From positions 1 through 64,000 of the forward strand of contig JAOBSW010000193.1 in the NCBI GenBank assembly GCA_026214975.1: a stretch of 64,000 nt of DNA, given 5' to 3'. Source of the stretch: Gentiana macrophylla. Lineage: Eukaryota > Streptophyta > Magnoliopsida > Gentianales > Gentianaceae. Under the pieces are notes generated by a model. That model had not been told where the DNA came from, searched no databases, and worked only from the letters and a program-made list of their open reading frames with translations. Positions 13,266-61,121 of this stretch are shown one piece after another (the stretch's first letter is position 1; every line of letters begins with the position of its first letter). Made by a program: the position numbers and the translations under genes.

Positions 13266-13266
13266 A

Positions 13267-13280
13267 TTGGTATCAGAACA
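13267..13280 (+). other. Copia B primer-binding site (initiator tRNA-Met)
   Basis: TTGGTATCAGAACA begins two bases after the LTR end. It is complementary to the 3' end of plant initiator tRNA-Met (TGGTATCAGAGC) with one substitution. Confidence 0.8.
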
Positions 13281-13387
13281 GTGTTCTTTAAGAAGCCCTT
13301 ATTAAAAGCTCACATGTTTTGATTATACTCTCTCGTTGTTCTTCTGAAAAAGCTCGGTTTTAGTTCTTGCATAAACTCACTCACACT

Positions 13388-17030: not shown

Positions 17031-17035
17031 CTCTT

Positions 17036-25827: not shown

Positions 25828-25919
25828 CTTGGAGGCATATTCATTCATTTAAATAAAATTACAACATGAATAAACGCACCATAAAAATATCTTAATAAAA
25901 TAAATTAACAACAAGGTAC
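25828..25919 (-). other. Intron-like 92-bp insert at the gag-protease junction
   Basis: On the minus strand the open frame ends ...DVISG and runs into an AT-rich stretch with in-frame stops, then resumes at [15 protein letters not shown]. The stretch begins GT (after CAG) and ends AG (before GTATG). Removing 25919-25828 rejoins the two sides in frame with nothing missing. That is what a phase-1 spliceosomal intron would do. Alternatively it is a small insertion with partly duplicated ends (GTACCTTGTTGTTA against GTATGATAATGTTA). No transcript is available to decide. Confidence 0.45.
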
Positions 25920-27330: not shown

Positions 27331-27521
27331 ACTGAGGTGGAGGAATCTGCCTCACAACTCCGCCCCTACTACCGGTGTCGGACTTTCCCGTCGAACTCTA
27401 GAAGTCTCTGCGCCGCTCAGGTTCTCGTGAACACCATCCACGATGATCAAAGAAAACCATAACGTTACTAAAGGATCTAGAGAAACTTATCTTAAAAGAA
27501 AGGAAGCCTAAAAGGCGCTTA

Positions 27522-27533
27522 GCTCGATACCAA
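27522..27533 (-). other. Chromovirus primer-binding site
   Basis: On the minus strand TTGGTATCGAGC. The site complementary to initiator tRNA-Met is TTGGTATCAGAGC; the difference is the loss of one A within CAG, the same change as in copia C. Confidence 0.7.
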
Positions 27534-29762: not shown

Positions 29763-31478
29763 TGTTGGTCCCTTGAAAAGGCTTTAGTTAAGTTTAGAGG
29801 GGGTGGTGAATAAACTTAACACTTAAAACTTTGGAGTTAACAAATTCTGCAACTTCAAAGGCCTGCGATATTTGATGTCTGCTTTGAGACCTCGTGTGCC
29901 TCTTTGATAAGCGATAGAGTCATCGACAGATTGAGCTTTGCTGAATTTGTGCAGCGGAATAATATCAAAATTAAGCCTTGTTACTTGTTGTTAAATATGT
30001 TACCAAGTATTAGATACTCAGTAGTGTATGTGTGTGATTTCAGTTTCTAGATTCAGCAGGTTGATATGAATAATAACTAAGTGCAGAAAGTAAATGCAGT
30101 AAGTAAGTAGAGAGATTTTTATAGTGGTTCCAGGTGATGTAATCATGTACGTCCACTCTTCTCCTGTGATGTTGGAGGAAATTCACTAGAGATCTTTGAG
30201 TTATCTATTACAAAGAATCCTAGGTTGCTTGTCCTTCACCAATAACTATGGCTTCACAAGCTGGCCAGGAGCAGGTAGGATTGCTTTGCTCCTGAGTCTT
30301 CCACTTTGGTCCTTGAAGGTAGAATTGCCTCTTCACCAGCTCCACCACAAACCAACAGTCTTTCACACCTAACGAGATGCTTCACTTGTCTTCAAGAGTT
30401 CTTTATAAAATAAAGAATGAATCAATTAAATGATTCGATTTGGGTGAGCTTGATTAGGATGATATAATCAGCAGCTTGCAGTCTTCAAGTGTGTATGCTT
30501 GATGCAGCTTGAACACAGAATTCACTTGAAGAAAATAACTAGATCAGCAGCCTTAAGCTCAGTAAGTTCAGCAGGGTGTTTTTCAGCTCAGTGTTATCAC
30601 TTGAAGTTTATTCCAAAATTCATCCTGTTCTTCTTGAGTTGAAAGTCCTCTATTTATAGGTAGGAATGCATGTGACTTGAATTTGAAATTCAAATGTGAC
30701 CGTTTCTTGTATTTGTCCCATCCTCACTGCATTCTGTCACTATTCATAGGACTGACACTGTCAGGATTACTTTTTGACAGATCTGATCATCCACCCTTTG
30801 ACTTGTATCCAATGGATAAAAATATGGATCATCCAGCGTCTTTTAATCTCAGCCTTTGATTTGCTTGATAAGTCGAGAGGTAGTTGGGTATTCTTATCCA
30901 TGTAACTTTCAATAATCTTGAATTAATCGAGGTATATATCAAGAGAGTTCATTAGTCTCTGTTGTGTAAAACTAATCGATCTCTTTGAACATCATATTTT
31001 TGTCTCAGTAAAATATAATGCGGTGATTCCTTTATGCAACTTTTATTTGTGAAGTTAGATTACATCATTTTAAATATAACTAAGTTCCAAACATCATCCA
31101 ACTTGTGGAACTTAGACCTTCTACACAAGGTATATGTAATCAGTTTAGGTCATCACAGACTTGCCTAAATACTGATTCCATATCCTTGACATTAAATACT
31201 AAGTTTGATCCCTTAGCCTTCATTTACTGAGTTTGAACCCTCAGCCTTCAGTCTTCAGTCTTCAGCAGGTTCCTGACAAGTCTACTGACCTATTTACCCT
31301 ACTGACCTAGACCGATCTGGCGATAAGCGAACACCTTTTTAAAGGATGCTTGTTTGATCAAACCTATTTATGAATCAAACTCTAATAAACCTATACATTT
31401 TATCTAGACATCTTTTTGCCTTTGCACTATAACAGCTAGTATGGCACTCATCATCAAAACTAAGAAATAAGTCCAACA
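29763..31478 (-). repeat. Copia C 3' LTR (1716 bp)
   Basis: On the minus strand it starts TGTTGGACTT after the polypurine tract and ends CCAACA. The TATA core (minus TATAAATAG) is at about 30650-30659. Near 31198-31260 two copies of a 'ctgagggttcaaactcagt'-like motif recall the repeats in copia B U3. Confidence 0.9.
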
Positions 31479-31492
31479 ATTTCCCCCTTTTT
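31479..31492 (-). other. Copia C polypurine tract
   Basis: On the minus strand AAAAAGGGGGAAAT, directly before the 3' LTR start TGTTGG. It is the plus-strand primer site. Confidence 0.8.
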
Positions 31493-31744
31493 GGTGATGA
31501 TGCCACTACCCTCACCTAATCAGCAAAGCAAAAAGATAAAAACACAAACAGAACAAATTCAGTCAATTCTCATTATAAATATTTGTTCACAGTTATTACA
31601 ACTAGATACAGCAAAAATAAACAGTGAAAAGTAGCTGATCTATTGTCTCTTCTCTCTTTCTTGTCTAGCCTTCTCAGCTTGCTCTTGATAAGCTCTGATC
31701 TCTTCTATCATTTCAATCATCCATTCATTCTTAATTAGTGTAAA

Positions 31745-34700
31745 GTCAATATAAGAATTGACTTATTTCCACCAATTCCATGCTTCAGGCAGGACAAGAT
31801 TGATCTGATTCACCCTGAAGCCAAACTTCATATACAGCTCCTTAAATTCATTCAGTGAATCTTTTGCTTTTGTAATTGGCAGCACCTTTTCACCTTTGCT
31901 ACTTCTTCTACCTCTGGTATTTGCTCTTAAAGCTCTAATCCTTGCCTCCCAAAACTTCAAACTCAAGAAGGAGTTAAGACCTTCATGAAATCCCATGTCA
32001 CGATAGGGTCTCCTTCTGTTATGGAACTCTTTCTTGTACTGTGATAGGAGATCATCAGTGAGTTGCACTCTGCCAGGTGCAGGTTGCCTAAAAGCATTTG
32101 TATCATCAGTCCATCTCTTCTGTGCAAAGAGTCTAGCATCCTCCTTTCTTTGCGGTGATTGGCCCTCTTCCCCTTAGTGACATCATCAACAAAGCGTGAG
32201 ATGAGGCCATGAATAGCTTCTGTGATACTATCACTCTGTGTAATTGACCGCCATTGTTCGATTCTAGTATCAAGTGAAGTAATCCTTGATTGCAGGGTCT
32301 CTTCCAGTCTGTTGATCCTTTCAGTGAGTTTGGGATCAGGCATAGCAGGTTGTTGTGCAGCAGCAGGCTCAGCAAGTTTGGGAGCTTCAGCAAGCTTGTC
32401 AAGTTTCTCATGTATAGAGACAAGTTGATCTTTTAGAAACTTGTCTTTGGCTTTATTTCCAACTTTGATACCATTGACATCTAGTATCAAATTATTCATT
32501 GCATTTTGAGTAGATGCAAATTTTGAAGCAACTGTATCAGTAGATTGTTTATTATCATTTACTATCTTTATCAGTTCTTCAAATCTACATTCTTACTGTC
32601 CAATTGAGTTCTTAAGCTGTTGCATGTCATTTCTTGATTCTTAACTCATTGACAACTTCAATTGGCACTCCATGGCCATTCTCTCTGTCGGTAGATCCAT
32701 GGTGAGCTCCTCAACTCTATATTGTGCCTGTTGTCTGGCGATGACCATGGCTCTACTCATATCTCTCCCAGCAGGGGGAGGTCCTTCCTCAACCATTGCA
32801 CCAAGAACATCTTCAAGGATAGGATCTTGTGCAGGTTCTTCAACAGCTTCTTCTTCTCCAAAAATTTGAAATTCTTCATCATTGTAGTCATAGTCCAAGA
32901 TTTGCTCATCCTCGTAACAATGCTGATCTGTGGCTATCCTTCCTACTGATGACCTTGGCTCCAGCAGGCTCTACTACAGCAGCCTCATCAACAACAGGGG
33001 TTTCCTCCATACCCAACTCTGGTTCCAACCTTTGTCCAGTCTTTGTTTGAGACTCGTGCTGCACTGCACCTCTGTTCCAACCTTTGTCCAGGTGCTGTTT
33101 GTACCTCAGCAACCTGTACCTCCTCTTCAATTTCCTGTGGATTAAATATAGCCTCATTATCCACTTGGAAACCTTCTGCATGACCAATCTTGGTCAGAAT
33201 CATGGCAGTTTTGGTGAGAATCCCTTCAAAGTCAAATCCACTTTGATATTCAATGGATTCCTCAGAACTAACACTTGGTTCATGAAGTCGGTGGTCTTTT
33301 CCACATCCAAATCAAGATTGCGTACATCTTCAAGGTTGTGCGAAGAGGCTCTACAACATGAAATGTGCTTGGTTCATCACCTGACCTACCAAAGACTCAA
33401 TGTAATTCCCTCGGTGATTAGTGCTTTAGGTCATCCATGGTGAGATCTTGTAGATCCTCATCCATTTCTCCGATCTGTGACCTCAAGCAAATCTACCAAA
33501 GATCGGTGGAATTTGTTATGCAGATGGTACATGTGTTAGTGCAGCCCCACTTGATTTCTCCTGGTCCAGAGGAAAATCTCTATACTATCGATGATGATGA
33601 AGAATCATCGGGACCATCTCTTGGATCTCTAAATTTGATACCCTCCTCTTACATTTGCTCATCAAAGCAGATCCGTCGATCTTGATTGCAGCAAGGTTGT
33701 ATCAATCAGATCCAGCAAGTTTTCCACTCCCAACTTGTCAAAAACCCATTCTTCAAAATCTGTCATTGGTTGAGCAGCTGGTTTTTGTCTTTTGTAGAAC
33801 CCAAACTTCCACTGGAAGTAATCAGCAATTTGCTGAAGTTTGGGATCCACATACTCTTGATTTTCTTGCTCTTTTTCACATGCCTTTCAAATGGCATAAA
33901 AGATCTCTGGAGCGACTCAGGTAGCTTGTTGACCTCCAAAGGTTCCAACAAGCGATTCATGGTATCTTCTAGATGTTTGAAAGTCATGAGTTCTTTGTGA
34001 TTGTACATTTGTACCTACTACTTCCATCTGTATCACACTTGGTTCCCCCTGACTTACATGCTCATCAGCAGGGTTAGCAGCAGACTGCTCTTCCCCCTGA
34101 ACTATTGCCAAATTTGCAGGGTCTTCAACCAAGTCTCCAATCACCTCGTCAACCACCACAAAGAGTTCGAGTTCGGTGGTTTCTTTGTGGTTCTTGATGG
34201 ATACTACAAGAGAGCTCGGGTCGATGGATCTGTTGTACATCCTCTCTGATTGCTCAAAAACAACATGTTCGACATCATCGTTAGACTTGATAACTTCTTC
34301 ATTTGAGGAATCACTTGATAACAAGCTGGTGGAATGATAGTTAGAGGCTCGGCCTCAACGACCTCTTCTTCCTCTTCTCTCTGGTGCTTCCTCTTGGACT
34401 CTTTGAGCTTCCAAGTTTTTAACTCTTTCCCTTGCCATATTTCTTCTTTTTGGTAACCTCCTTCATCCTCTTGGATAGCGGTTCATCATCATCAACTTTT
34501 CTAGTCAATTTTCTTTTTCTACTAGCTTCCTTCTGTTGTTCTCTAAAAATTTCTCCAACAGTTTTTCTTGAAGCCACAGCAGGGTTAGTAACCTCCACTT
34601 GACCCTCAAGTGAGACTCAACGATGCATCTTTGTTTTCCTTCTTGTTCTTTTTGATTTCAAGACTTACGTAGTCTTTCTAACATCGATACTCTTTCTCTT

Positions 34701-35550
34701 TCAGTGATTTTCTTTGGTGCAAAGAGTTTGATAGATATCTTCTTAGTTTGTTGAACACCGCTCACCACCGATATCACCATCATCTCCATCATCATTATCA
34801 TCAATGACCTCTCGGCCAATCTCTTCATCATCATCAAGTCCAGAATTGCATAATCAATCTCCTTTTTGTATACGGGTGATTTATGTCAATCTGGTTCAAG
34901 GTCGGGAACCTCAAGTGATTCAGAGGTGCGAATCATCAAACCTAAAGGTAAGGCCTTTGATTTCCTTTTCCTAGTTTGTCCTCCTTCGCAACTTTCTTCA
35001 TATAATGAATAAAGTACCCGGCCTGATCAAACTTCATGCTCCTGAGATGATAATCATCGACTCTATCTTGGGTCACGATAGAGTATCCATCACGCCAACT
35101 AGCCCAAGTATGTTCTTTGCAATGAGCTTGCTCGCCAGACTATATTCAATACCAATGTTTTTGTAGTTGATGCCAGTATCGATTTGATAGTTGCTTCATC
35201 TTGATCGATCTACAAAAGCCATCTTGTCCAATCCCATAGCTTGAGGATTGGTGAACCATCAACAACTTCTTCAAAACCAAACACTTGTCTCAAAGATTTG
35301 GAGGAGATTACAAGCTCCTCACCATTCTGATGGGTTTGAAGGCTTGATTCTTCTTCTATAACCATATTCTTCCGAAATCAATAACATTGGTGTATGATAT
35401 CGTTTCTAATCGATGTTGAGTATATTCTCGGTCTTGCAAATCTTCTTATTCTTCGACCTATATTAATGGCGGCTCTGTTTGATTTGCATCAACAACATAG
35501 CCTCTTACACTTTGGCTTGATTCGATTTGAACCTCAATCTTTTCCGCCAT
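31745..35550 (-). pseudogene. Copia C ORF3 (long accessory / env-like ORF)
   Basis: The ATG at 35550 (ttcaATGGcg) opens MAEKIEVQIESSQSVRGYVV. The conserved block at 35265-35327 reads NGEELVISSKSLRQVFGFEE, the counterpart of VVITE..IR in copia B and D. Near 34400-34500 there is a basic, possibly nuclear-targeting stretch (SKRMKEVTKKKKYGKGK). At 32250-32430 LTERINRLEETLQSRITSLD has coiled-coil spacing. The C-terminal part (31763-32068) ends NLVLPEAWNWWK. It is split into more than ten short frames. The function is unknown; I see no catalytic motif and no clear membrane segment. Confidence 0.6.
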
Positions 35551-35663
35551 TGAAATAAGAAAAGGATGAAGAAAATTGCTCTTAAATCTGTGTTCACACG
35601 ATGTAGATTTTGCAGAAATAAAGCAGAAATTGCAAGTGGTGAATCTGCTATGTAACAGTCTGA

Positions 35664-35673
35664 ATATATAGAC
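35664..35673 (-). promoter_or_regulatory. TATA box before copia C ORF3
   Basis: On the minus strand CTATATATTC, about 115-120 bp before the ATG at 35550, with a T/C-rich leader between them. A G-box (CACGTG) lies at 35747-35752, about 75 bp further upstream. Confidence 0.55.
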
Positions 35674-35746
35674 AGTGGGTAGTTGAAACTGTCACAGCAC
35701 GTACATTAAGGTAACCACGATTAAATCTGATTAAATGATGTCTTGA

Positions 35747-35752
35747 CACGTG
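35747..35752 (-). promoter_or_regulatory. G-box upstream of copia C ORF3
   Basis: CACGTG within 'gacacgtggtcc'. Copia D has two CACGTGGA sites upstream of its ORF3 promoter. Confidence 0.45.
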
Positions 35753-36180
35753 GTCCATTACTCCTCCATAACGTTTGTAACCGTTGGATGGTTTAACTGT
35801 GGTAATAATGGATAAAATAAATATCCCGCCAAACTGCTTTTTGACCTAAATAACTTTGACTGAGTAACGTTCCATTCAAAGCAGGTATCCTTCGGTGGGC
35901 TGGGCTCTGATCTGGCGATAATGTGCTTCAAATGCTCGACTTGACGAAGTGACTCTCTTGATCCTTGTTTTCTCCTTGTTTTGTTCAATTGATAATACAA
36001 GATGAAGTTTAATACCAATGACCGATCATCAAGTGAGCTCACCCAACATGACAAAGACCAATCCCTTGGCAACCTCATTTGCTCAATTGTTCAAACATAA
36101 GTACATGGAATTGTTGATACCAATGACTAATCGCTAAGTGAGCTCACCCAACATAGCAAAGACTAATCCCCTTGGTGAAT
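35753..36180 (-). other. Copia C spacer between pol and ORF3
   Basis: No supported ORF. Two short segments resemble each other ('tgagctcacccaacat.acaaagac' near 36035 and near 36140), a local duplication at the end of pol that is also recognisable in the other copia copies as the sequence after RNase H. Confidence 0.4.
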
Positions 36181-37860
36181 TCAATTAATCGTTGATTATC
36201 AGTCAATCTTTATAATTCCAAGTTCGAGTCCTTAATTTAGCAAATCTTTCTTTGTCAAGTGGTTTAGTGAAAATATCAGCAAGTTGATCTTGATAGGAAT
36301 GTATAGAACCACCACATCTTTCTTTTCAACATGATCTCTTATAAAATGATGTCTCACATCAATGTGCTTGGTTCTTGAATGCAAAACAGGATTTTCTGTG
36401 ATTGCAATTGCACTTGTGTTGTCACACATGATTGGAATTTCCCTTTCTTCAATTCCATAATCCCTTAATTGTTGTCTTAGCCAAAGTACTTGTGCCTGCA
36501 GATTCCAAAGACAATGTATTCACCAAAGAGTGGAAGTTGAGATAGAATTGCATTTCTTGCTAAACCAGAGACCAGTCTATTTCCCATTAAGCGACGAGGT
36601 TCACGAGGTGCTTTTTCTATCAATCTTGCATCCAGCATAATCAGAATCTGAGTAGGATATTACTTTGAAGCTTCCTTCCTTGGAATACCATATTCCTACT
36701 CCCAAGGTCTCTTTAAGATACTTGAGAATTCTCTTAACTGCACCTATATGACTTTCTTTAGGTTTAGATTGAAATCTTGCACAAACACCTACGACAAAGG
36801 ATATATAAAGTCTCTTTGGCGGTGAGATACTGAGAGACGCCTATCATCATACAATACAAAGTCGATCAACATCTTTGCCTTCTTTATCTTCATCCAATCT
36901 GATGTTTGTACTCATAGGAGTTGAATTCTTAGTGCTGTTTTCCATACCAAATTTCTTCAGCAACTCTTTGGTATACTTGGTTTGATGAATGAAGATTCCA
37001 TCCTTCATCTGTTTAACTTGCAATCCCAAGAAGTAATTCATTTCTCCCATCATACTCATTTGGAATTTGCTCTTCATTAGATTTGCAAACTTTTCACAAA
37101 GTAAATCATTCTCAGAACCAAAAATTATGTCATCCACATAAATTTGTACCCAGTCTTTGTCCCTTCATCGATTACGAAAAGTGTCTTGTCAATGGTCCTT
37201 TTGTAAAACCATTGTCCACCAAGAATTGAGATAAAGTCTCATACCATGCTCTTGGTGCTTGTTTCAATCCATAAAGTGCTTTGTTGAGTCTATACACTTT
37301 ATCTTCTTGATCTTTAACTTCAAATCCAGGAGGTTGCTGAACATACACTTCCTCCTCTAGGATACCATTCAAAAATGCACTCTTGACATCCATTTGATAT
37401 ACTTTGAAGTTCTTGTATGCAAAGCATGTGCCAAAAATAATCGATAGCTTCCAATCTTGCAGCAGGTGCATAAGTCTCATCAAAATCTATTCTTACCTTG
37501 AGAATAGCCTTTTGCAACTAGTCGGCCTTATTTCTAACAATGGTACCAGATTCATCAAGTTTATTCCTGTATACCCATTTAGTACCAATGATATTTGCAT
37601 GACTTGGCCTTTCAACTAGTGTCCAAACTTGATTTCTTTCAAATTCATTTAATTCTTCTTGCATAGCAATTATCCAATCTGGATCTGAAATTGCTTCTTC
37701 AACAACTTTAGGTTCCATTTGAGATAGGAAACAAGTAAACATAGCTTCCAGTTGTCTTCTAGTCCTCACACCTTGCTGTACATTGCCAATTACTTGTTCA
37801 GCAGGGTGATTCCTTAACCATTGTGGATTTTGGTTATTTTGATTTTCAGGAATATCATCT
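36181..37860 (-). CDS. pol: Copia C reverse transcriptase and RNase H
   Basis: RT blocks in order: [34 protein letters not shown], the ARLEAI block, [51 protein letters not shown] (catalytic Asp pair near 37125) and [20 protein letters not shown]. RNase H: SDSDYAGC region near 36630-36650, then [20 protein letters not shown] and [17 protein letters not shown] (36232-36429). Frame changes near 37510, 37170-37140, 36850, 36480-36600 and 36270 break it. Many of these fall on CAG/CTG positions and may be sequencing error. Confidence 0.85.
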
Positions 37861-39345
37861 TGGTAGGGTCCTTGTAGTTTCTTCTCTGAGGGGTCGTGAG
37901 ATCCTTGAATTGCTTGATTGTTGCATCGGTAACATTGTCACAGGTGTTAAGTGAGGCGATGTCGAAACTTTTAAGTCATTGAATCTTTCCAAAACTTCAA
38001 CACAATCTGGATCAGTGACTTGTTGATTCTTAGCGGAGTTCATGATCTTCATCTTCCATTCCGATAAACTTAGGTTCATCAAACACAACATGGATTGTTT
38101 CTTCATGTTTTAGTGACCTCTTGTTCAGTACCCTGAATGCTCTGCTGACTGAAGAATATCCCAAGAATATGCCTTCATCTGATTTTGGTTGGAATGTCTT
38201 CAAATGAACTTTGTGATTTAGAATAAAACATTTACTTCCAAATGGATGGAAATAGGATATGTTAGGTTTCCTTCCATTCCAAACCTCATAAGGTGTCTTC
38301 AATGACTTCTTGTTTCTTGATGTTCTATTTTGTGTATAGCATCTTTGTATTCTTGCTTCATTTAATATCTTTCAGGTAGCAATGCTTCACAAATCATTGT
38401 TCTTCCCTGCTTCCTTTAATGTCCTGTTTCTTCTTTCAAAGAACCCCATTTTCTTTGAGGTGTACCAATGAGCAAGAAGTTGATGAAGTACACCATTACA
38501 TTCACTATATTCTCTTATAACTTTGTTGAGAAATTCGAGTACCTGATCGATCTTATCTTTTATGGTATTAAACTTTTCTCATTTTGTAATCTCTTCAAAA
38601 GATTAGGCATGCTTTGGAGTGTCTCACTTTTCTTGTTCATGAATATCACCCAAGTGTATCTAGAAAAATCATCCACAACCACTAAGGTGTATTTCTTTCT
38701 GTCACACTTGTTGGAGTTATTGGTCCAAAAGATCCATGTGCATAAGCTCCAACACTCTGTTAGTTGATTGTTTAGTCTTTGACTTGAAACTTGACTTTAT
38801 CATTTACCTTGGCGACATGCATCACGGATAGCATCCTTCTTGAATGTGATCTCGGGTAAACCAACCACTAACTTCTTCTTCACTAACTGATTAATATCAT
38901 CAAAATTTAGATGATTTAACTTCTTGTGCCATAACCAATTGTGTTGATTTGGTATGCACAATCAGCAGTGTTTCGAAGGCTATGATGAGACCAATCCACA
39001 ACATACATGTTCTCGTTTCCTTCTACCGACAAGTACAACTTGATCACCTCTTTCACTAATGACAATACAATTGTTTTTGTCAAAAGTGACCTTGTATCCC
39101 ATATCACAGAATTGTCCAGTGCTCAGCAAGTTGTAATCCAGTCCTTCCACATATGCAACATTCTTGATTGTAAGTCCATTTCTGATAAGTGTGCCATATC
39201 CTCTTATATAACCAGGTGTATTTTTGTTGCCAAAATTTACCCTTGGACCATCTTTTGCCACAAAGTTTGATAGCAGTGCTTATTCTTTGTCATGTGTCCG
39301 GAACATCCTTTGTCAAAGTACGGACACCCTACAAAACAAAGTTAA
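37861..39345 (-). CDS. pol: Copia C protease, GAG-pre-integrase and integrase
   Basis: The protease active site near 39300-39320 reads YFDKGCSGHMTKNK, where copia B has YFDSGCSRHMTK. The Asp is kept; the Ser and Arg changes fall on CAG-type trinucleotides and may be artefact. VAKDGPRVNFGNKNTPGYIRGYGTLIRNGL and the GAG-pre-integrase follow (39261-38850). Integrase blocks are visible near 38700-38640 and 38570-38400, and the C-terminal part TPYEVWNGRKPN, GYSSVSRAFRVLNKRSLKHE and HVVFDE at 38030-38302 is open. The three catalytic acids lie in different frames. Confidence 0.8.
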
Positions 39346-40039
39346 TGCATTTTAGGTACCCAAACTGTTTGGGTCCATAGTGGTCGATGGCAAGCATGAC
39401 CCTTGGTATGTTTCCATAAGGTCTTCTCCTAAATGTGTCATACTTTGGTTCATACTTTGGTTCATACATGTATTCCACACATCCATAAGTTCTAACAAAG
39501 AGTGAGGTTGTGTAGGAACCACATATGTTTTACGGCCTTTTGGTACATAATCTTTGTTTGAAATGATTCTTGTTATTAGAAACATTTGCATAACCATAGG
39601 TGTCTTTGTCTATTAGAAGACGATACAGTAATATGGAGTCTCTTTGAGGTCTTGTGTAAGTCCCACTTTGATTCCATTGCCTAGGTTTTACCCTAGTAGT
39701 ATGGTTATCTTGATTGTTTCTAGCATTAGATGCAGGAATATTCCAATCATTATCAGATGGGAGCAGTCTACCTTTCCCCCTAAGATAAGTATCCCTTGAA
39801 TGATCAACAATTTTGGATTTAGGATTCTTATTCTTGGAATATTTTTGTTTCTTTCCTTACGTGGTCCAGCGAGACTTGGTGTGAGTCCGCTATCAGTGAC
39901 TTAAGGCACAATGAATCCTATTTTTGGATTTATTCTTTTACTAGAGTGTTGACTTCGAGACTTCCGATTTTGCTTCCTTGAGGCATTCTCATTTGGTTTT
40001 CTTGCTTGGCTGACCTTCTTGGGAGATGGATCTAGTGCG

Positions 40040-41646
40040 AGGCACAAACTTAGGACAAATTCTCAGTACTAGGTTGATAACTTTCTTTGGATCCACTCTT
40101 GTTAGATTCTTTGAGTTCCAAATCCAAGCCCGATTCTATCTCCATAAGGCTTTCCGATTTGTATGCGTGATTGGAACAAGATGGTTCAAGTAGATTCAGA
40201 GGTCTTTGGATGTTCAAAGTGATCTTATCTCGATTCTGTCCAACATCTTTTTCCTTACCTTTGAAAACCCTTAATTCAGCTTTCAATCTTCCAACTTCTA
40301 ACTCAAGAGCCTCTTTTTCAGCCTTCACAATCTCATAACCAGATTGTATTATCCTTAGTTGATTAAGGATGGCATCCAAAGTCTCATTGTTGTCAGAATT
40401 TCTAGGATTTGAACCACAGGTTGATTCACAATCACTTCCAGCAGGAGTGTTTATAGATACAGTGTTGTATACCTCCTCAGTTTCATCCATGTTGGCCATC
40501 AAAGCATAATCCTCCATATCAGCAACCAGTGCTGTGTCATCTGATTCATTTCCTTTTTCAGATTCCACTTCATATCCTGATTCATCTTCAGCAACCATAG
40601 CCTTCTTGCCATGTCTCCTTTGTTGACTCTTGGTCTTCAGTAGGTCTGGACAATCAGGTCTAAAATGTCCAGGCTTCTTACAGTTGAAGCAAAGATAATC
40701 AGGTTCCTTGCCTTGTTTCAACTCAGGACAATCAGGTCTGAAGTGTCCTGGTTTCTTGCAATGAAAGCATAGATAGTCATTATCTTTCTTTGGTTCTTCT
40801 TTCCTTCTTCGGTAGGCCTCTTTGTGAAATTTCTTGTAGGGGCCTTTCCGGTCTTCATCATTCGATTTTCTTGCTCAAGTAGGGCAATTTGCTCTTGCAT
40901 TTCATCTAGCATATCATCCTGTCCTCCCGATGTTTCTTCATGATGTGAAGCAGCCAATGCTGATGGTCTTTGGCTCTTCTTTTCGGCCAGCACTAGCTTC
41001 TTGCTAAATTCATAGGCCTTAAGATCGAGAGAACAGTTTGAAGGTGTCTTCTTCATGCAGCATTCTCATTTCTTCAATTGCAGTCACCTTCATTTTCCAA
41101 ACATCTCTTGCAGGTAAAGCTTCCAAGATTTTGGTGTTTACTTCCTCTTTTGAATAACTTACACTCAAGCAGAGTAAGTTCATCTAAGATTGCATTGAAT
41201 CGGACTCCATTTGCTCAATGGTTTCATTAGGTAGCATTTTGAACTTTTGAAACCTTTTACGGCCACACCGATTTTGTTCTTCTTTATTGCATCGGTGCCT
41301 TCACAGATTAAGTGGATCTTATCCCAAAGTTCTTTTGCGATCTTGCAATCTTTGACTTTCATGTACATATTGCTATCCAAGGTTCTGTAGATGATATCAA
41401 TAGCAATGTTGTTGAGGTTTGCTCTTTTCCTGTCTTATGCATTCCATTCTCTCTTTGGTTTAGGAATGTACTCAGATTCATCACCCACTATTATACGCCT
41501 TTGTAATCTTGGTGGTCCTTGATTTAGTACATCCATCATCTCATTATGAGTAGCGAGCAAGATATGCCACGCATTCGACGTTTATACTCATCAAATCTAT
41601 CAAGAGAGCACATCAACATGGTTCTAGCATCTTGTGTGTTATCCAT
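40040..41646 (-). CDS. gag: Copia C gag with two tandem zinc knuckles
   Basis: The start at 41646 (MDNTQDARTMLMC) matches copia B. Blocks: LDSNMYMKVKDCKIAKELWD, then LKAYEFSKKLVLAEKKSQRP, EMQEQIALLEQENRMMK, and two CCHC knuckles 78 bp apart (YLCFHCKKPGHFRPDCP and YLCFNCKKPGHFRPDCP at about 40780-40645). 40050-40721 is open for 223 residues and contains KAEKEALELEVGRLKAEL, a coiled-coil stretch. The linker to the protease (about 40040-39345) is in short frames. Gag packages the RNA through the zinc knuckles; most other plant copia gags have one. Confidence 0.85.
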
Positions 41647-41734
41647 GATGCAAGTCTTGAAAATCGGTAACTTGAAAGAAAGTTTTAAAGAATTTTCACA
41701 AGCACAACAAGTAGGATTCCTTGAGCGAAGCCTT

Positions 41735-41747
41735 TGCTCGATACCAA
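41735..41747 (-). other. Copia C primer-binding site
   Basis: On the minus strand TTGGTATCGAGCA, one base after the LTR end. Relative to the initiator tRNA-Met complement TTGGTATCAGAGCA one A of CAG is missing. Confidence 0.8.
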
Positions 41748-41748
41748 T

Positions 41749-43460
41749 TGTTGGTCCTTGAAAAGGCTTTAGTTAAGTTTAGAGGGGGTGAATAAACTTA
41801 ACACTTAAAACTTTGGAGTTAACAAATTTGCAACTTCATGACTCTTGATATTTCGAAGAGTCTGTTGAGACCTCGATAAGCTCTGGCGATAAATGATGAG
41901 TTCATCGGTGATTCGCTTTCTTTGAATTTGTGCAGCGGAATAATATCAAAATTAAGCCTTGTTACTTGTTGTTAAATATGTTACCAAGTATTAGATACTC
42001 AGTAGTGTATGTGTGTGATTTCAGTTTCTAGATTCAGCAGGTTGATATGAATAATAACTAAGTGCGAAAGTAAATGCAATAAGTAAGTAGAGAGATTTTT
42101 ATAGTGGTTCCAGGTGATGTAATCCTGTACGTCCACTCTTCTCCTGTGATGTTGGAGGAAATTCACTAGAGATCTTTGAGTTATCTATTACAAAGAATCC
42201 TAGGTTGCTTGTCCTTCACCAATAACTATGGCTTCACAAAGCTGGCGGGAGCAGGTAGGATTGTTGCTCCCGAGTCTTCCCACTTTGGTCCTTGAAGGGT
42301 AGAATTGCCTCTTCACCGGCTCCACCACAAACCAACGATCTTTCACACTAACAATGGATGCTTCATTTGTCTTGGCAGAGTTCTTTATAAAATAAAGAAT
42401 GAATCAATTAAATGATTCGATTCAAAAGCGGCTTGATTAGGATGATATAATCGCCAGCTTGCGGTCTTCAAGTGTGTATGCTTGATGCGGCTGAACACGT
42501 AATTCACTTGAAGAAAATAACTAGATCGTGACCTTAAGCTCGAAGAAGTTCAAAGAGGTGTTTTTCACTCAGTGTTATCACTTGAAGTTTATTCCAAAAT
42601 TCATCATGTTCTTCTTGAGTTGAAAGTCCTCTATTTATAGGTAGGAATGCATGTGACTTGAATTTGAAATTCAAATGTGACCGTTTCTTGTATTTGTCCC
42701 ATCCTCACCGCATTCTCGTCACTATTCATAGGATCGACCTTTGTCAGATTACTTTTGTGACTGGCATCTGTCCCACCCTTTGACTTGTATCCAATGGATA
42801 AAAATATGGATCATCCCAACGTCTTTTAATCTCACCTTTGATTTGCTTGATAAGTCGAGGTAGTTGGATGTTCTTATCCATGTAACTTTCAATAATCTTG
42901 AATTAATCGAGGTATATATCAAAGAGGTTCATTAGTCTGCTTTGTAAAACCAATCGATCTGCTTGAACATCATATTTTTTGTCTCAGTAAAATATAATGC
43001 AAATTGATTCCTTTTATCCAACTTTTATTTGTGAAGTTAGATTACATCATTTTAAATATAACTGAGTTCCAAACATCATCCAACTTGTGGAACTTAGACC
43101 TTACACACAAGATATATGTAATCGGTTTAGGTCATCACAGACTTGCCTAAATATCGATTCCATATCCTTGACATTAAATACTAAGTTTGATCCCTTAGCC
43201 TTCATTTCTTGAGTTTGAACCCTCGGCCTTCGGTCTTGGTCTTGGTGAGGTTCCCGACAAGTCATCGACCTATTTACCCTCATCGACCTAGACCATCATT
43301 GATAAGCGATCAATGACCTTTTTACAAATGCTTGTTTGATCAAACCTATTTATGAATCAAACTCTAATAAACCTATACATTTTATCTAGACATCTTTTTG
43401 CCTTTGCACTATAAGAGCTAGTATGGCACTCATCATCAAAACTAAGAAATAAGTCCAACA
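41749..43460 (-). repeat. Copia C 5' LTR (1712 bp)
   Basis: TGTTGG...CCAACA on the minus strand, TATA core near 42631-42640, followed by the primer-binding site. It is paired with 29763-31478; the two are collinear along their whole length. Confidence 0.9.
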
Positions 43461-43465
43461 ACAAC
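43461..43465. repeat. Target-site duplication of copia C, right
   Basis: ACAAC, identical to 29758-29762. Confidence 0.9.
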
Positions 43466-43586: not shown

Positions 43587-43600
43587 TTGGTATCGGAGCA
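43587..43600 (+). other. Copia D primer-binding site
   Basis: TTGGTATCGGAGCA. The initiator tRNA-Met complement is TTGGTATCAGAGCA; the single difference is CAG read as CGG. Confidence 0.8.
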
Positions 43601-43724
43601 GTGTTCCTAGTATCAGAACCTGTTCGGATCTAATTTCTGGTAACAAGGAGATCACGTATTTTCAAAATAGTTTTCAAATCTGAGCTTTCCGTTAATTCAC
43701 ATATAGATCTATTATTTTCAACTT

Positions 43725-48960: not shown

Positions 48961-49201
48961 AGCGGCTAATGGAGTAATCGGCTAAGTAACTTCATCAATG
49001 GTTCAACCTTTGCCGTTACTGAGGGATGTAGCAGGTAAGGCATCGGTATCCAGTGAAGTTAACTTAAGCGATTGTTAGAACGGTTAAATCTAGCATGACT
49101 CGAGTGAAGAAATCACTATATCGGCTAAGTGACCAGCCAAGGCACTTCACCGAATTAAAGACTTGGACAAATTAAAGTGTGAACAAAATCAATTTTTACT
49201 A

Positions 49202-49570: not shown

Positions 49571-51180
49571 TGTTAAGGCCATATTTATATGATTATTAAG
49601 GGTGTATTTCATTATTATTTTCCCCACATTTGCACAATTTACATGAGGATTAAGGTTTTAAGTGTAATTATTTAATAGAGATGATTTTAAGAGGGTTGTA
49701 TGCAAAATTGATGATTTTAAGTGTTGATTTAATGGAATTATTATTATTTGGATTTTATTACATTTTTGCATTGTTTATTTATCATGTAGGTGTTGATTTT
49801 CGAGTGCCATAAGTGGATAAATAAAGCTCAAGTCGAATTATAAGAGATAGAGTTGGAATTGGCTTGAAGAAATTGGATAAAGATGATGAAATCCGACCCT
49901 CAGCATCTTGGACGAGCGTTCGTGCAGCGTCCATTCCAGACGGGCGTTTGATAAAGTGGACGAGCGGCGTCCGGAATTGTGTTTTACATTGAGAGAGAGT
50001 TCAGACGGAGGATGAAGCGGCGTTTACTCAGCGTCCAGGCATTACGGGCGGGCGCCCACAAGACAGGCGGCGTCCGTTGCCGACTTAACCCTAACCGACT
50101 TGAAGCTCTATAAATAAAGCGGCAGCCCCAACCCTAATTCATATACCACATAATTGAGATCGAAAATTCACCAAAAAGCTGCGGCCAGAGAACCCTAATT
50201 TCACGAGAGATGCAAATCTCCCAACCAACAATCATCTCCAACATGATTGTTGGCTAGAAAGCTGCTGCGGTGAGTCGACGGAGGAAGCCCATCATCAACG
50301 CAACCAACTAGAGAGTTCGATGCTTTATGTTAGTGAGTTTAATTTATAGTTTTTCATCACTTTGGATGTTGTTTTGTATTGATCATGTTTCGTTGGAATT
50401 AACGATTTGATGAAACGATTTATCTATATCTACATGCTTGGATCTATGTATGAAAATATATTGGTTTAAGTTTTATTTCGTTCAAGTGATGCAATTATTC
50501 GTGTTTAAGAGATTATGCATGATTAGTTGAGTGAGAGTTTGGAAACAACCTCGTGATTTCGTGTTGATTGTATGTTTAGTTTATTTGAAAAGATAAACGA
50601 AACCCTAGAATTTGATTGAAGATATTTAATTGGATTCATGAATAAATCGCTACTAAAAACTACATCTTAGATCACCATCTAGTTGGGGTTGTTGGTTGAT
50701 GGGTGGATTCGTTGCCTCGCTGTGTTTTCCTTTATTGTTTATTAATCGAATCATTAGTTAAATCGTTTAGATTAAGTTTAGTTTAAGTTTTAGTTTTATA
50801 AACCCTAATTTCCTGCATATCTTCTGCATATTTTCTGTTCCAGCCAGTAGTTGGACGCCGTCGCAATAGCGCACGCCCGTCCGTTAGGTTTAGTTTTGAC
50901 GCGCTCGTTCACTTTAGTGAGCGCCGTCTGGCTTTTTGTTTTCTTATTTTCTGTTTGTTTTTATTTCCTGTTTTAATTTTAATTCTTAGGTTTAGGTTTT
51001 AGTTAGTTTCAGCCTTAGTTTAGTAGTTTAGTTAATAATTGTGACGTAATCAATAGAATAATTGTCCCTTGATCCGATAAACATTCCACTCCCTTAGGAC
51101 GACCCGTAAACACCCTATACTACGATCCTTATACTTGGGGTGTTTCGGTTTATAAATTTAAAACTAGTTTTTACCGAACA
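49571..51180 (+). repeat. Athila 5' LTR (1610 bp)
   Basis: It starts TGTTAAGG and ends ACCGAACA. TATAAATA is at 50109-50116. Copies of a GGACG..CGTCC-like near-palindrome lie at about 49909-50075 (before the TATA box) and 50855-50930 (after it). Confidence 0.92.
50109..50116 (+). promoter_or_regulatory. TATA box of Athila 5' LTR
   Basis: TATAAATA in 'gaagctctataaataaagc', preceded by the CG-rich motif cluster and followed by an A/C-rich start region. It is duplicated at 60048-60055 in the 3' LTR. Confidence 0.7.
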
Positions 51181-51182
51181 AG

Positions 51183-51205
51183 TTTTGGCGCGCCGTTGCG
51201 GGAGT
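51183..51205 (+). other. Athila primer-binding site (tRNA-Asp type, damaged)
   Basis: Right after the LTR the sequence reads 'ttttggcgcgccgttgcgg'. The tRNA-Asp complement used by Athila begins TGGCGCCGTTGCCGGGG. The differences are an extra CG and a lost C, both in CCG/CGG contexts. Confidence 0.65.
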
Positions 51206-53999: not shown

Positions 54000-54871
54000 A
54001 TTTGTTCGAAAATGTTTTATGCGACTCGGGGCCTCCATCAATGTGATGCCATTAAATGTATGCAAGAAGCTCGGGCTAGACAAAGAATGCGAGAACGCCC
54101 CATTTCCCTTCGGATGGTAGACAAATCTAGTAAATCTCTGCAGCCGGTTGTGTAGCTAATGTTCTCCTTCAAATTGAACATTTAGTCTTCCCTACCGACT
54201 GGGTTATTCTAGACTATCCACCTGATAAGGAGATGCCTCTAATTCTAGGCCGAACCTTTTTAGACACTTCTAACGCTCTCATCGACTTCTGCAAAGGACA
54301 GATTACTCTAAGAGTCGGTGACACATCCGTCACCTTCACACGAGGGACACATCCTGAAAGAGCCGTAATTGATGAAATATCGTTTGTCGAAGCCATATAT
54401 GAGGACGGAGGAGATGCCTATTATGAAGATGCAATGGAGCTTACAGAGATAGGTGTTTTTGAAGTCATGGACATTGAGGATCCGGCTGACTGCGGACCAT
54501 CTTCTAATTCATTTCCAGCCGTAGGCATTGACGAGTCATCTTCACTCGCTCATACTGAGCCTGTTATTGAGTTGGAAGCATGGAGATGCCCAGCAACAAA
54601 CGATGATCTCAAAGAACTGAGTCAGGAAGACTTCATCCCTGGTGAAGAAGAAGCTCTGATGGGTAGTTGGGACGAGGTAGAGTTTTGGAGAGAAGCTACT
54701 CATTGGGAAGTAGATGATTGGGAAGAGCTGGCAGAAGAGCTTAAAGATGAAGAGTTAAGAAAAATGATCGATCACAAGAAAAAGGAAGCAAGTGTTGACC
54801 GGAGGATTCCGATGGATGATTTGATCCAGCACTTTTCTGGGGTTGAGCCTCGGGAAGATGAGGTGTTCTAA
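54000..54871 (+). CDS. pol: Athila protease and acidic linker
   Basis: The catalytic CDSG is at 54020-54031, followed after a one-base shift in a G run by ASINVMPLNVCKKLG. The flap/C-terminal part is LILGRTFLDTSNALIDFCKG with QITLRVGD (54233-54330). From 54370 to 54871 a long acidic stretch (many Glu/Asp, EDGGDAYYEDAMELTEIG, WDEVEFWREATHWEVDDWEE) links to RT. 212 residues are open at 54233-54871. The protease cuts the polyprotein in the particle. Confidence 0.82.
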
Positions 54872-54887
54872 CACAACCACTTCAAGC

Positions 54888-56470
54888 TCATAGGGAGAAA
54901 GGTGGCCCGTTAAAATCTAGTATTGAGCAACCACCTACTGATTTAGAGCTCAAACCGCTTCCAAAACACCTTAAGTATATCTTTCTTAAGGATGGAGATA
55001 AATTGCCTTTGATCATTTCTTCGAAACTCGACCCTGAGCAAGAAGCACAGCTGATAGAAGTGCTTAAGAAAAACATCCTCGCGTTCGGTTGGCAAGTGGG
55101 TGATATCCGAGGGATCAGCCCAGACATATGCATGCATAAAATCCGAACGGAGGAGGGAGCTAAAAAGGTAAGACAACCTCAGCGAAGGCTGAATCCGCAT
55201 ATGCAGGAGGTTGTCAAGAAGGAGGTTATAAAGTGGCTCGACATGGGAATCATCTATGCAATCGCCGATAGCGAGTGGGTCAGCCCTACTCAAGTTGTGC
55301 CAAAGAAGGGCGGAATCACAGTTGAAAAGAATGAAAAAGGGGAGGAAGTTGCCTTACGTCTCGTGACAGGCTACAGAGTCTGTATAGACTATCGTAGACT
55401 TAATGAGGTTACTGCCAAGGACCACTTTCCCCTACCCTTCATTGACCAGCTTATTGAACGACTGAGTGGTCACAAGTATTATTGTTTTCTCGATGGATAC
55501 TCTGGTTATTTCCAGATAGCCATCGACCCCAATGACCAAGAGAAAACCACGTTTACATGTCCATCTGGTACTTTTGCTTTTCGTAGAATGCCATTCGGTC
55601 TATGCAATGCACCCGCGACTTTTCAACGGTGTATGTTGGCCATTTTTGATGGACTTGTTGAGAAATGCATGGAGGTCTTCATGGATGACTTCTCAGTCTA
55701 CGGCGATAGCTTTGATGAAATTTTAAAGAACCTAGATATGGTACTCCAACGTTGTGTTGAGAAGAATCTGGTGCTTAACTGGGAAAAATGCCATTTTCTA
55801 GTAGACGAAGGAATCGTTTTGGGACATAAGGTGTCCAATCTTTGGTATTCAAGTTGATAAGGCTAAGGTTGAAGCCATCGAAAGGATGACGTACCTAAGG
55901 CAAAGTGAAAGAGGTACGAGGTTTTCTAGGACACGTTGGCTTCTACAGCGGTTTATTCGAGACTTTTCTACCATCGCCAAGCCTTTATCAAATCTCTTGA
56001 AAGAAGATGTAGATTTCTTGTTCGATCGCGAAGTGCAAAGAAGCTTTCAATTGTCCGAAAGATAAGCTTATCGCTGCCCCTATTTTAGTAGCTTTGATTG
56101 GACCAAGCCTTTCGAGTTGATGTGCGATGCCTCTAATTACGCCGTAGGCGCAGTTTTAGGTCAAAGAGTTGATAAAAGGTTTAGGCCCATTTATTATGCG
56201 AGTCGTACCTTGAACCCGGCTCAATGCAATTATACTACAACTGAGAAGGAATTCTTAGCCGTCGTTTTTGCCATTGACAAGTTTAGAAGCTATCTTCTAG
56301 GGTCTCAAGTTGTTGTTTGGACAGATCATGCAGCTTTACGCTACCTTATGGATAAAGCAGATGCCAAACCAAGGTTACTTCGATGGATTTTAATTCTACA
56401 AGAGTTTGACCTTGTGATTAAAGATAAGAAAGGTAGTGAGAATATTGTGGTGATCATTTATCTCGCTTAG
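54888..56470 (+). CDS. pol: Athila reverse transcriptase and RNase H
   Basis: RT is open for 284 residues at 55003-55857: [98 protein letters not shown], the catalytic FMDDFSVYG (near 55680), and [16 protein letters not shown] shift near 55840-56115 breaks the connection (SNLWYSS against the family's GHKVS..GIEVDKAK). RNase H at 56117-56470: [37 protein letters not shown] and [13 protein letters not shown], with the catalytic Asp, Glu and Asp visible. Confidence 0.9.
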
Positions 56471-58122
56471 TAAATGAGGGTGCGAAAATCACAATGATAT
56501 AGGCATTGATTTTCCGGTCGAGCAATTGATGAAGCTTGAAACGGTTAGGCCGTGGTATGTCGACTACGTCAACTATTTAGCGAGTGGTCATTTAGAGGAT
56601 ATGACGTATCGAGAAGAAAAGTTCTTTCGACCTTAAATATCTCGTATGGGAAGATCCTTATTTGTTCAGAATCTGTAAAGACGGGTTGCTTCGACGGTGT
56701 GTTCCTGAGCATGATCAGTGGGATATTTTGGAACAATGCCATAGCGGTCCTACCGGAGGTCACTATGGAACACCGAAGACGGTTGCAAAGATTCTTCAAG
56801 CTGGATTCTACTGGCCGACTCTGTTTAAAGATGCAGAAGCCTTTTGTAAAGGTTGTGATAGGTGCCAGAGAACTGGACGGCAGAGTAGTCGGATGGAAAT
56901 GCCACTTAAGCCCATTCTTGAATGCGAAGTTTTCGATGTATGGGGCATAGATTTTATGGGACCCTTTCCATCCTCATGTGGTAATAAGTATATCCTCGTC
57001 TGTGTGGATTATGTTTCAAAGTGGGTCGAGGCCATAGCTACTCAAACTAATGATCATAAGGTGGTAAAGAAATTCTTGCAAAAGAATATCTTTACTAGAT
57101 TCGGCTGTCCGAGAGCACTCATTAGTGATGAAGGTACTCACTTTTGCAATGCGCCGCTTGACAAGATCCTTGAGAAGTATGGTGTCAAACATAAGATTGG
57201 TACACCATATCATCCTCAAACTAGTGGCCAAGTCGAGGTAAGCAACCAGAGCTTGAAAAGAATTTTGGAGAAGACCGTGAACAATAATCGATCTAATTGG
57301 AGTCTTAAGTTGGATGACGCGTTGTGGGCTTATCGTACTGCATTTAAAACCCCGATGGGCACGTCACCCTTCCAAATGGTCTATGGCAAAGCTTGTCATT
57401 TACCTGTCGAACTTGAACACAGAGCTTTCTGGGCAATTAAATTCTTAAATTTTGATAGCCAACTCGGGGGGAGAAAAGGTTGTTACAGGTTGAACGAGCT
57501 CGACGAATTCAGACTCCGTGCATACGAGAATGCTAAGCTCAGCAAGGAGAGAACTAAGATACTCCATGACGCTAAGATCAAGGACCGAGAATTCAAAGTT
57601 GGTGACATGGCTTTACTCTATAATACTAGACTTCATTTGTTTCCTGGTAAGCTCAAGTCTAGATGGTCTGGTCCCTTTGAGATTCTCGAGGTTAATCCAA
57701 GTGGAGTAATTACTCTGAACGGGTATGGTAATCAAGCTTTCAAAGTGAATGGTCATAGACTTAAGAAATATTTTGGGCAACCAAAGGAAAAGCCTGAGAT
57801 TCTTTATTTCCAAAGCAGAGATGAGAGTACAGATGTCCTGATTTGTGAGGAGATTCCATCTTATTTCTTTGAGTCAGATGACGATGACGTTCCTATATCC
57901 ACCCGAAAGGTACCTTCTGCTGAAACTTCTGATCATACCACTGTGTCTATGCCTATCATCCGCAAGAACAAGAAGAAGAGAGTCAGTGTCGTTTGGAGAG
58001 AAAAGTTTAATGATCTTATAGCGCACTTGACTTGTTGTTGTGGTGAAAATCATTTCCGCCCAATACTTGATTTCGATCATCGAGGTGGCGGTAGTCAAAC
58101 CGAAGTGGCCCGATCCGGTTGA
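56471..58122 (+). CDS. pol: Athila integrase
   Basis: The 56662-58122 frame is open for 486 residues. N-terminal zinc domain: [19 protein letters not shown] and [11 protein letters not shown]. The catalytic core is complete: [15 protein letters not shown] (Asp), [11 protein letters not shown] (Asp) and [16 protein letters not shown] (Glu). The C-terminal domain follows: [36 protein letters not shown] and [15 protein letters not shown]. The tail of about 110 residues is acidic, then basic ([13 protein letters not shown]). 56471-56661 carries the RNase H-integrase linker in broken frames. It inserts cDNA into the genome; no inactivating change is visible. Confidence 0.92.
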
Positions 58123-59516: not shown

Positions 59517-61121
59517 TGTTAAGGCCATATTTATATGATTATTAAGGGTGTATTTCATTATTATTTTCCCCACATTTGCACAATTTACATGAGGATTAAG
59601 GTTTTAAGTGTAATTATTTAATAGAGATGATTTTAAGAGGGTTGTATGCAAAATTGATGATTTTAAGTGTTGATTTAATGGAATTATTATTATTTGGATT
59701 TTATTACATTTTTGCATTGTTTATTTATCATGTAGGTGTTGATTTTCGAGTGCCATAAGTGGATAAATAAAGCTCAAGTCGAATTATAAGAGATAGAGTT
59801 GGAATTGGCTTGAAGAAATTGGATAAAGATGATGAAATCCGACCCTCAAGCATCTTGGGCGGCGTTAAATGCGGCGTCCATTCCAGGCAGGCGTTTGATA
59901 AAGTGGGCGGCGTCGGAATTGTGTTTTACATTGAGAGAGTTTGAGACGGAGGATGAACGGCGTTTACTCAGCGTCAGGCATTCGGACGGGCGCCCACAAG
60001 ACCAGGCGGCGTCCGTTGCCGACTTAACCCTAACCGACTTGAAGCTCTATAAATAAAGCGCAGCCCCAACCCTAATTCATATACCACATAATTGAGATCG
60101 AAAATTCACCAAAAGCTGCGCCGAGAACCCTAATTTCACGAGAGATGCAAATCTCCCAACCAACAATCATCTCCAACATGATTGTTGGCTAGAAACCTGC
60201 GTGTTGAGTCGACGGAGGAAGCCCATCATCAACGCAACCAACCAGAGAGTTCGATGCTTTATGTTAGTGAGTTTAATTTATAGTTTTTCATCACTTTGGA
60301 TGTTGTTTTGTATTGATCATGTTTCGTTGGAATTAACGATTTGATGAAACGATTTATCTATATCTACATGCTTGGATCTATGTATGAAAATATATTGGTT
60401 TAAGTTTTATTTCGTTCAAGTGATGCAATTATTCGTGTTTTAAGAGATTATGCATGATTAGTTGAGTGAGAGTTTGGAAACAACCTCGTGATTTCGTGTT
60501 GATTGTATGTTTAGTTTATTTGAAAAGATAAACGAAACCCTAGAATTTGATTGAAGATATTTAATTGGATTCATGAATAAATCGCTACTAAAAACTACAT
60601 CTTAGATCACCATCTAGTTGGGGGTTGTTGGTTGATGGGTGGATTCGTTGCCTCGCTGTGTTTTCCTTTATTGTTTATTAATCGAATCATTAGTTAAATC
60701 GTTTAGATTAAGTTTAGTTTAAGTTTTAGTTTTATAAACCCTAATTTCTGCATATCTTACGCATATTTTTTACCATTTCAGCCAGTAGTTGGACGCTCGT
60801 CCGCAATAGCAGACGCCCGTCCGTTAGGTTTAGTTTTCAGACGCTCGTTCACTTTAGTGAACGCTCGTCTGGCTTTTTGTTTTCTTATTTTCTGTTTGTT
60901 TTTATTTCCTGTTTTAATTTTAATTCTTAGGTTTAGGTTTTAGTTAGTTTCAGCCTTAGTTTAGTAGTTTAGTTAATAATTGTGACGTAATCAATAGAAT
61001 AATTGTCCCTTGATCCGATAAACATTCCACTCCCTTAGGACGACCCGTAAACACCCTATACTACGATCCTTATACTTGGGGTGTTTCGGTTTATAAATTT
61101 AAAACTAGTTTTTACCGAACA
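59517..61121 (+). repeat. Athila 3' LTR (1605 bp)
   Basis: TGTTAAGG...ACCGAACA. Collinear with the 5' LTR and identical over its first ~330 bp and other long blocks. Differences cluster near 59847-60000 and 60765-60865. TATAAATA at 60048-60055. It ends 11 bp before the ORF3 start codon of copia D. Confidence 0.92.

Follow-up and report, generated by a model that had tools for sequence, protein, structure and literature searches.

We analysed a 64,000-nucleotide window of Gentiana macrophylla DNA (contig JAOBSW010000193.1, positions 1 to 64,000), in which a retroelement that we call copia C (29763-43460) carries two long terminal repeats (LTRs) that should have been identical at insertion and now differ in dense pockets. 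We consider it very likely, with a probability of roughly 0.93, that these differences are mostly consensus error at methylated CHG (H, any base but G) and CG sites of a nanopore-based assembly. The differences concentrate at CAG/CTG and CG, recur in two unrelated retroelement families, are almost never inherited within LTR pairs, and carry a distinct substitution signature. Methylation of the affected sites in G. macrophylla, the nanopore platform, and uneven polishing are all three things that we infer.

Plant retroelements usually carry methylation on both strands at CHG (including CAG/CTG) and CG. In the explanation that we propose, 5-methylcytosine would shift the pore signal across neighbouring bases, and a basecaller untrained on it would read C-G-G for mC-A-G and C-C-G for mC-T-G, or would drop a base or garble the sequence where methylated sites cluster. 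Short-read correction would miss repeats copy by copy, and LTRs identical at insertion would end up with different errors.

Differences between the copia C LTRs

Copia C is a minus-strand element with the marks of the Ty1/copia group, namely an LTR pair with TG...CA ends, a 5-bp target duplication (ACAAC), a tRNA-Met primer site adjoining the right LTR, and a polypurine tract adjoining the left LTR (Table 1). Our LTR alignments ran over 29763-31480 and 41749-43461, 1-2 bases beyond the true ends. The RVT_2 domain may be represented by a short piece in a broken frame (37521-37937; 22.5 bits, below the 31.6 cut-off), and the DNA at 36078-39379 aligns with 45799-48959, where the frame 47535-48269 holds RVT_2 (4.7e-70).

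An earlier note on this DNA had described long identical stretches interrupted by pockets of difference, and the alignment agrees. Its 1732 columns include 178 substitutions (106 transitions, 72 transversions) and 33 gap columns. The resulting 211 difference columns fall into 46 clusters, against 75 under random scatter, and the longest identical runs (143, 114, 102, and 87) compare with a mean longest run of 45 when 211 differences are scattered at random. Both pockets and both sequence examples given in the note were found in the LTR pair, and two further pockets came to light.

The note had also placed the differences at CAG/CTG and proposed an LTR alignment with a count by trinucleotide. 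That count found enrichment at CAG/CTG. In the left LTR, 45 of the 58 CAG/CTG trinucleotides are disrupted, compared to 368 of 1716 trinucleotides of all kinds, and when the differences were shifted circularly, no shift out of 1731 reached 45; for the right LTR (11 of 24 disrupted), 16 of the 1731 shifts equalled or exceeded the count. When the window's two LTR pairs, copia C and a Ty3 element, were pooled, CAG/CTG was the most disrupted of the 32 strand-symmetric trinucleotides (67/123). CHG sites, which the note regarded as the weak point, are indeed affected but not alone: CGC/GCG is disrupted as heavily as CAG/CTG (6/7 in the left LTR), and a regression on local context with the left LTR as reference gave z values of 4.2-5.5 for the CG and CAG/CTG terms and no clear term for CHH (z 1.9, -0.5). 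Outside the neighbourhood of CAG/CTG and CG, 30 of 915 columns of this pair differ, which is an upper bound, as the pockets may extend further.

Table 1. Positions of the LTRs, difference pockets, and associated features in the window.
Feature	Position	Strand	Facing position	Remarks
copia C 3' LTR (left copy)	29763..31478	-		TG...CA ends; ACAAC duplicated at the target; polypurine tract on the inner side; paired with the right copy
Pocket 1	29858..29941		41839-41922	Garbled differences; LTR alignment
Pocket 2	30441..30575		42423-42557	LTR alignment
Additional pocket	30752..30793			Absent from the earlier note; LTR alignment
Additional pocket	31226..31345		~43208-43327	Absent from the earlier note; LTR alignment
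copia C tRNA-Met primer-binding site	41736..41746	-		One base shorter at CAG than the canonical word; ambiguous as evidence
copia C 5' LTR (right copy)	41749..43460	-		Departs from other family members more often than the left copy
Ty3 5' LTR	49571..51180	+		LTR pair, target duplication ATTTT
Ty3 reverse transcriptase and integrase	54862..58119	+		RVT_1 in 54862-55854, Integrase_H2C2 and rve in 56605-58119
Ty3 3' LTR	59517..61121	+		Pockets of the same kind as in copia C

Recurrence across the assembly

Further copies were taken from the window's own assembly (1.79 Gb, 1264 contigs). A search with the left copia C LTR gave 11,900 candidates, and the best-scored 40 of these resolved into 30 loci, one of them the window's own LTR; the sample is hence biased toward likeness to the left LTR. 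The copia C LTR set thereby grew by 29 copies and the LTR pairs by 11. Among 15 loci searched for a mate, 12 yielded one and L016, L024, and L011 did not (for L011 the fetched stretch was too short); an LTR found in L048 was left unused. Target duplications were compared visually, allowing a shift of 0-2 bases: 9 of the 12 pairs match, and L027, L012, and L020 are doubtful. The partial pair L013/L040 enters the 12-pair column, motif, and signature counts and was excluded from the mate test and its bootstrap.

Across the 12 copia pairs (the window's included), 1251 of 4465 columns (28.0%) differ within 2 bases of CAG/CTG, compared to 302 of 10749 (2.8%) at columns over 5 bases away from both CAG/CTG and CG. 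The near/far ratio was 5.15 for CAG/CTG versus 2.46-2.73 for GCA, GAC, and AGC, three motifs with the same base composition; among CHH motifs it was 2.63 for CTC, 1.45 for CAC, 1.38 for CAA, 0.95 for CAT, and 0.48 for CTA. The differences gather at the symmetric methylatable contexts CHG and CG and not at CHH, with CTC/GAG as a partial exception.

Column diversity in the 31-copy alignment follows the same motif. Where CAG/CTG was present in at least 10% of copies, diversity was 0.338 at the site and fell to 0.152 at 1-2 bases, 0.081 at 3-5, 0.060 at 6-10, 0.045 at 11-20, and 0.032 beyond 20. This rule admits variable columns more readily than the stricter requirement of half of the copies, under which diversity was 0.266 at the site, 0.143 at 1-2 bases, and 0.08-0.11 farther away. 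Under the stricter rule, values at the site were 0.13-0.17 for GAC, GCA, and AGC and 0.05-0.06 for CAA, CAC, and CAT, and only CGC (0.362, 12 columns) stood above CAG.

The window's Ty3 element (49571-61121) has the order expected of Ty3, with the 5' LTR followed by RVT_1 and then by integrase H2C2 and rve, and its coding region lies in pieces of different frame (tblastn pieces of relatives fall in frames 1, 2, 3, and 1). In three Ty3 pairs, the window's included, 115 of 573 columns (20.1%) differ near CAG/CTG versus 19 of 2688 (0.71%) far away. Away from CAG/CTG and CG, the window's own Ty3 pair differs at 3 of 899 columns, again an upper bound given that the pockets may extend further.

LTR mates hardly share variation at CAG/CTG

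Both LTRs of an insertion are copied from a single template, and any variation that was inherited must hence be common to mates. Far from CAG/CTG and CG this is what we found: the distance between mates was 0.0167 versus 0.0374 between elements (ratio 0.45), and the mate was the nearest LTR in 13 of 22 cases. At CAG/CTG columns the mate distance was 0.364 versus 0.384 between elements (ratio 0.95), with the mate nearest in only 2 of 22. When only variable columns were considered, with intervals from a bootstrap over 11 copia pairs, the within-pair to between-element ratio was 0.94 (0.89-0.99, an interval just below 1) at CAG/CTG and 0.44 (0.35-0.54) or 0.49 (0.39-0.59), depending on the threshold, far away. 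Because mates are barely closer than unrelated LTRs at CAG/CTG, the differences there were not inherited; the changes arose copy by copy, after insertion or during sequencing.

These results bear directly on real family polymorphism or gene conversion, in which the LTRs would be mosaics of diverged subfamilies. Pockets bordered by identity do resemble conversion tracts, and of the 244 columns at which left and right differ in the 31-copy alignment, 152 are mixed in the other copies (at least 80% of the 29 others back the left LTR at 57 and the right at 35). However, mates share variants far from CAG/CTG and hardly at CAG/CTG, the fraction of site pairs with all four gametic combinations is 0.911 at CAG/CTG (1084 pairs) versus 0.557 far away (454 pairs), and the excess is bound to one trinucleotide in two unrelated families. 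We therefore regard a mosaic origin as very unlikely.

Substitution and indel signature

Among 146 isolated substitutions in the 12 copia pairs, the exchange between CAG and CGG (on either strand) accounted for 40 and was the commonest change involving CAG/CTG; CAG was otherwise exchanged with CAA (11), CAT (7), TAG (3), CTG (3), and GAG (1). Isolated 1-bp insertions and deletions (indels) numbered 142, of which 33 were within CAG/CTG (base rate 6.8%) and 38 in runs of at least three (17.6% of bases). Multi-base blocks made up 448 of the 736 difference blocks. Run lengths in the polypurine tract also vary among 13 copia LTR copies, with a C run of 3-6, a T run of 4-6, and the commonest form in 7 of the 13.

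The CAG-CGG exchange, A for G or T for C inside CWG (W, A or T), is of the same type as the nanopore error at methylated CC(A/T)GG in the published passages of PMC6703438, where A called as G made up 68.0% and 72.3% of discrepancies in two E. coli isolates, T called as C made up 29.7% and 20.8%, and nearly all discrepancies fell at that motif. A passage of PMC6591954 attributes about 70% of the consensus errors of then-current Oxford Nanopore Technologies basecallers to Dcm sites. As excerpted, these enterobacterial miscalls resemble ours in the A to G and T to C changes next to 5-methylcytosine in a CWG core, in their gathering at methylated motifs, and perhaps in homopolymer errors ranking next; they differ in that ours come from a plant host and fall at CHG plus CG in retroelements whose methylation we infer, with multi-base garbling common where sites cluster.

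For plants, excerpts of PMC7501810 and PMC9749173 state that basecalling software had not been tuned to native DNA from plants. An excerpt on a nanopore assembly of maize A188 (PMC8188678) assigns about 96.4% of the potential errors to transposons or other repeats, likewise despite short-read polishing; that excerpt gives no breakdown by cytosine context, and the Gentiana case adds the context and the LTR-mate signature. In another study, as far as the excerpt goes, nanopore scaffolds were polished with HiFi reads (PMC10027222), which contributes nothing further on this point. Our literature search, across partial texts of this kind, met no description of a CWG error in plant assemblies.

Other explanations and observations that weigh against consensus error

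Mismapping of short reads from other copies during polishing could move real variants between copies. Such a shuffle is expected in repeats, would likewise make mates as unlike as unrelated copies, and may add to basecalling error. It leaves the concentration at CAG/CTG and the CAG-CGG signature unexplained, however, and old variation at methylated sites should appear as TAG or CAA, which make up 14 of the 146 isolated changes compared to 40 CAG-CGG exchanges. As the principal cause, we find it hardly probable.

Deamination of 5-methylcytosine in transposons acts on the same CG and CHG sites. The earlier note had set it aside on the grounds that it would give TAG or CTA; that argument is incomplete, since deamination at CpG turns CGG into CAG and CCG into CTG. 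If the left LTR had lost methylated CpGs after insertion, the CAG/CTG excess would be ordinary deamination seen from the other strand. Consistent with this, the right LTR has 36 CpGs and the left 17 (observed/expected 0.62 and 0.29), and 20 right-LTR CpGs lie opposite CpA or TpG. Against it, the next base was G in 8 of 8 isolated CpG-type transitions versus 15 of the 72 CpG contexts in the right LTR, 37 of the 66 difference blocks of the pair are multi-base, and decay would be expected to affect the two mates equally. At such columns, a related LTR in the window has the state of the left copy 11 times, that of the right copy 4 times, and that of neither 7 times (this very diverged outgroup, at 11400-13320, matched the left LTR at 73 of 160 columns, the right at 33, and neither at 54). 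Decay also runs counter to the presence of CAG at such sites in family members regardless of age, which was partly seen. More generally, deamination gives TAG or CAA from CAG and CpA or TpG from CpG, whereas here CAG-CGG exchanges that follow no CpG rule, indels, and multi-base blocks dominate. CpG decay is not the main cause of the copia C differences, and we give very little credence to it as an explanation of the whole.

Least probable of all is real hypermutation, with a new process changing the bases adjacent to methylated CHG cytosines of silenced retroelements. It agrees with the sequence context and the copy-by-copy nature of the changes but requires 36% mate divergence at CAG/CTG columns versus 1.7% elsewhere and has the signature of a known sequencing error; we know of no enzyme that hypermutates such bases.

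Several observations weigh against consensus error at methylated sites. In 81 of the 146 isolated substitutions no CAG/CTG is involved, and 71 of the 142 isolated 1-bp indels lie outside CAG/CTG and runs (base rate 75.5%). In the 12 copia pairs, the same-composition motifs are likewise in two- to threefold excess, and CAG/CTG (566/920) ranks third of 32 classes, behind the rarer CGC (154/204) and CCG (135/191). When the right LTR served as reference, the regression gave no significant term for CAG/CTG (z 1.2, 1.3), which is expected if the bad copy lost its motifs but is no independent proof, and plain GC content correlates with the copia C differences about equally well. Diverged coding copies showed no CAG to CGG change at 26 cells where the other copies were unanimous on CAG/CTG. 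Lastly, primer-site variants that resemble the CAG to CGG error may be real, isoform-primed sites (see below). Consensus error rather than mutation, as the note had read the pair, nevertheless has the support of recurrence in 12 copia and 3 Ty3 pairs, of mates that are unlike each other, and of the substitution type.

Primer-binding sites and coding copies

According to part of PMC3852365, the canonical tRNA-Met complement is found in 9 of 9 jatropha copia families. The site was located beside 17 of 31 copia C LTR copies: CGG replaces CAG in 11, a base is missing in 3, TCG replaces CTG (other strand) in 1, and of the remaining two one is canonical and one (L013) reads CTCTGCTA. Genome-wide counts, with those for the reversed pattern in brackets, were 5300 (6) for the canonical site, 9453 (22) for the CGG form, 1050 (36) for the shorter form, and 376 (28) and 768 (16) for the deamination forms TAG and CAA.

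We compared these sites with the tRNA-Met genes of the assembly, 13 of which were called by ARAGORN among 17 places examined out of 40 matches. One gene is identical to the canonical tRNA-Met sequence (72/72). Acceptor stems were ATCAGAG/CTCTGATA in 6 genes, AGCAGAG/CTCTGCTA in 4, the type that matches the primer site of L013, and ATCGGAG/CTCCGATA in 2; the thirteenth was unaligned. The CGG primer site may be real because the compensated ATCGGAG/CTCCGATA stem is its exact complement. We had tried primer-binding sites as ground truth and dropped them as evidence, since a matching tRNA-Met isoform makes the CGG site ambiguous.

Three acceptor-stem types of initiator tRNA-Met (tRNA-iMet), all compensated, thus occur in one genome. 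The two ATCGGAG/CTCCGATA genes lie at C2:20068024-20068095 (L064) and C2:20074992-20075063 (L063), and the primer sites in the window are at 43588 and 41746. The least frequent stem among those examined complements the most frequent primer site in the counts: either most such retroelements are primed by a real isoform, or CAG to CGG misreading struck both stem arms of two tRNA copies. For the Ty3 element, the primer site was compared with a tRNA complement, whose word appeared in one passage on peanut (PMC5904367); this was too thin and was not used.

Lone 1-bp deletions in coding paralogs leave CG in 5 of 26 cases, versus 2.5% by chance (P 0.0004), which lends weak support to error at these sites. 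Unmethylated host genes would be spared by such error; in actin, the one gene family viewed for this, there were 44 matches, and 9 of the 12 spanning at least 170 profile positions had no internal stop, with introns read through, so that most exons are open. Exact copia C LTR words searched against viral contigs gave 0 matches each.

Consequences for dating and annotation

As biology, the finding is nothing new, and it matters as a caution. A real process that alters bases (A to G, small indels) beside methylated CHG, making mates there as different as unrelated LTRs, is highly improbable. LTR divergence over all columns was 10.8% in the 12 copia pairs and 4.2% in the 3 Ty3 pairs, versus 2.8% and 0.71%, respectively, once columns near CAG/CTG and CG are set aside. 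Should this excess be error, ages estimated from LTRs in this assembly are inflated about four- to sixfold, young elements appear old and broken, and CAG/CGG variants may be mistaken for polymorphism. With misread sites, ages and broken genes inferred from such elements in this assembly would be untrustworthy, and the true age of the elements is probably lower than LTR divergence implies. Two safeguards require no reads: LTRs can be dated only from columns away from CHG and CG, and mates can be compared with unrelated copies for likeness at CHG columns.

Other elements in the window

Copia C is apparently nested in another copia element (43588-48979), as it is directly followed by the terminal part of another LTR, the primer site at 43588, and plus-strand gag/pol pieces to about 48979. 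More copia copies lie at 1239-4568 (-), 11400-19008 (+), and 45799-48979 (+), with pol 67-76% alike and all frames broken. A minus-strand Ty3-type fragment at 23505-27532 has RVT_1 (24452-25099), integrase H2C2 (23505-23921), and, at 27532, a word resembling a primer site; within the window, no pair of LTRs was found for it. An RNase H-like frame at 7098-7760 (RVT_3, RNase_H) is perhaps from a non-LTR element.

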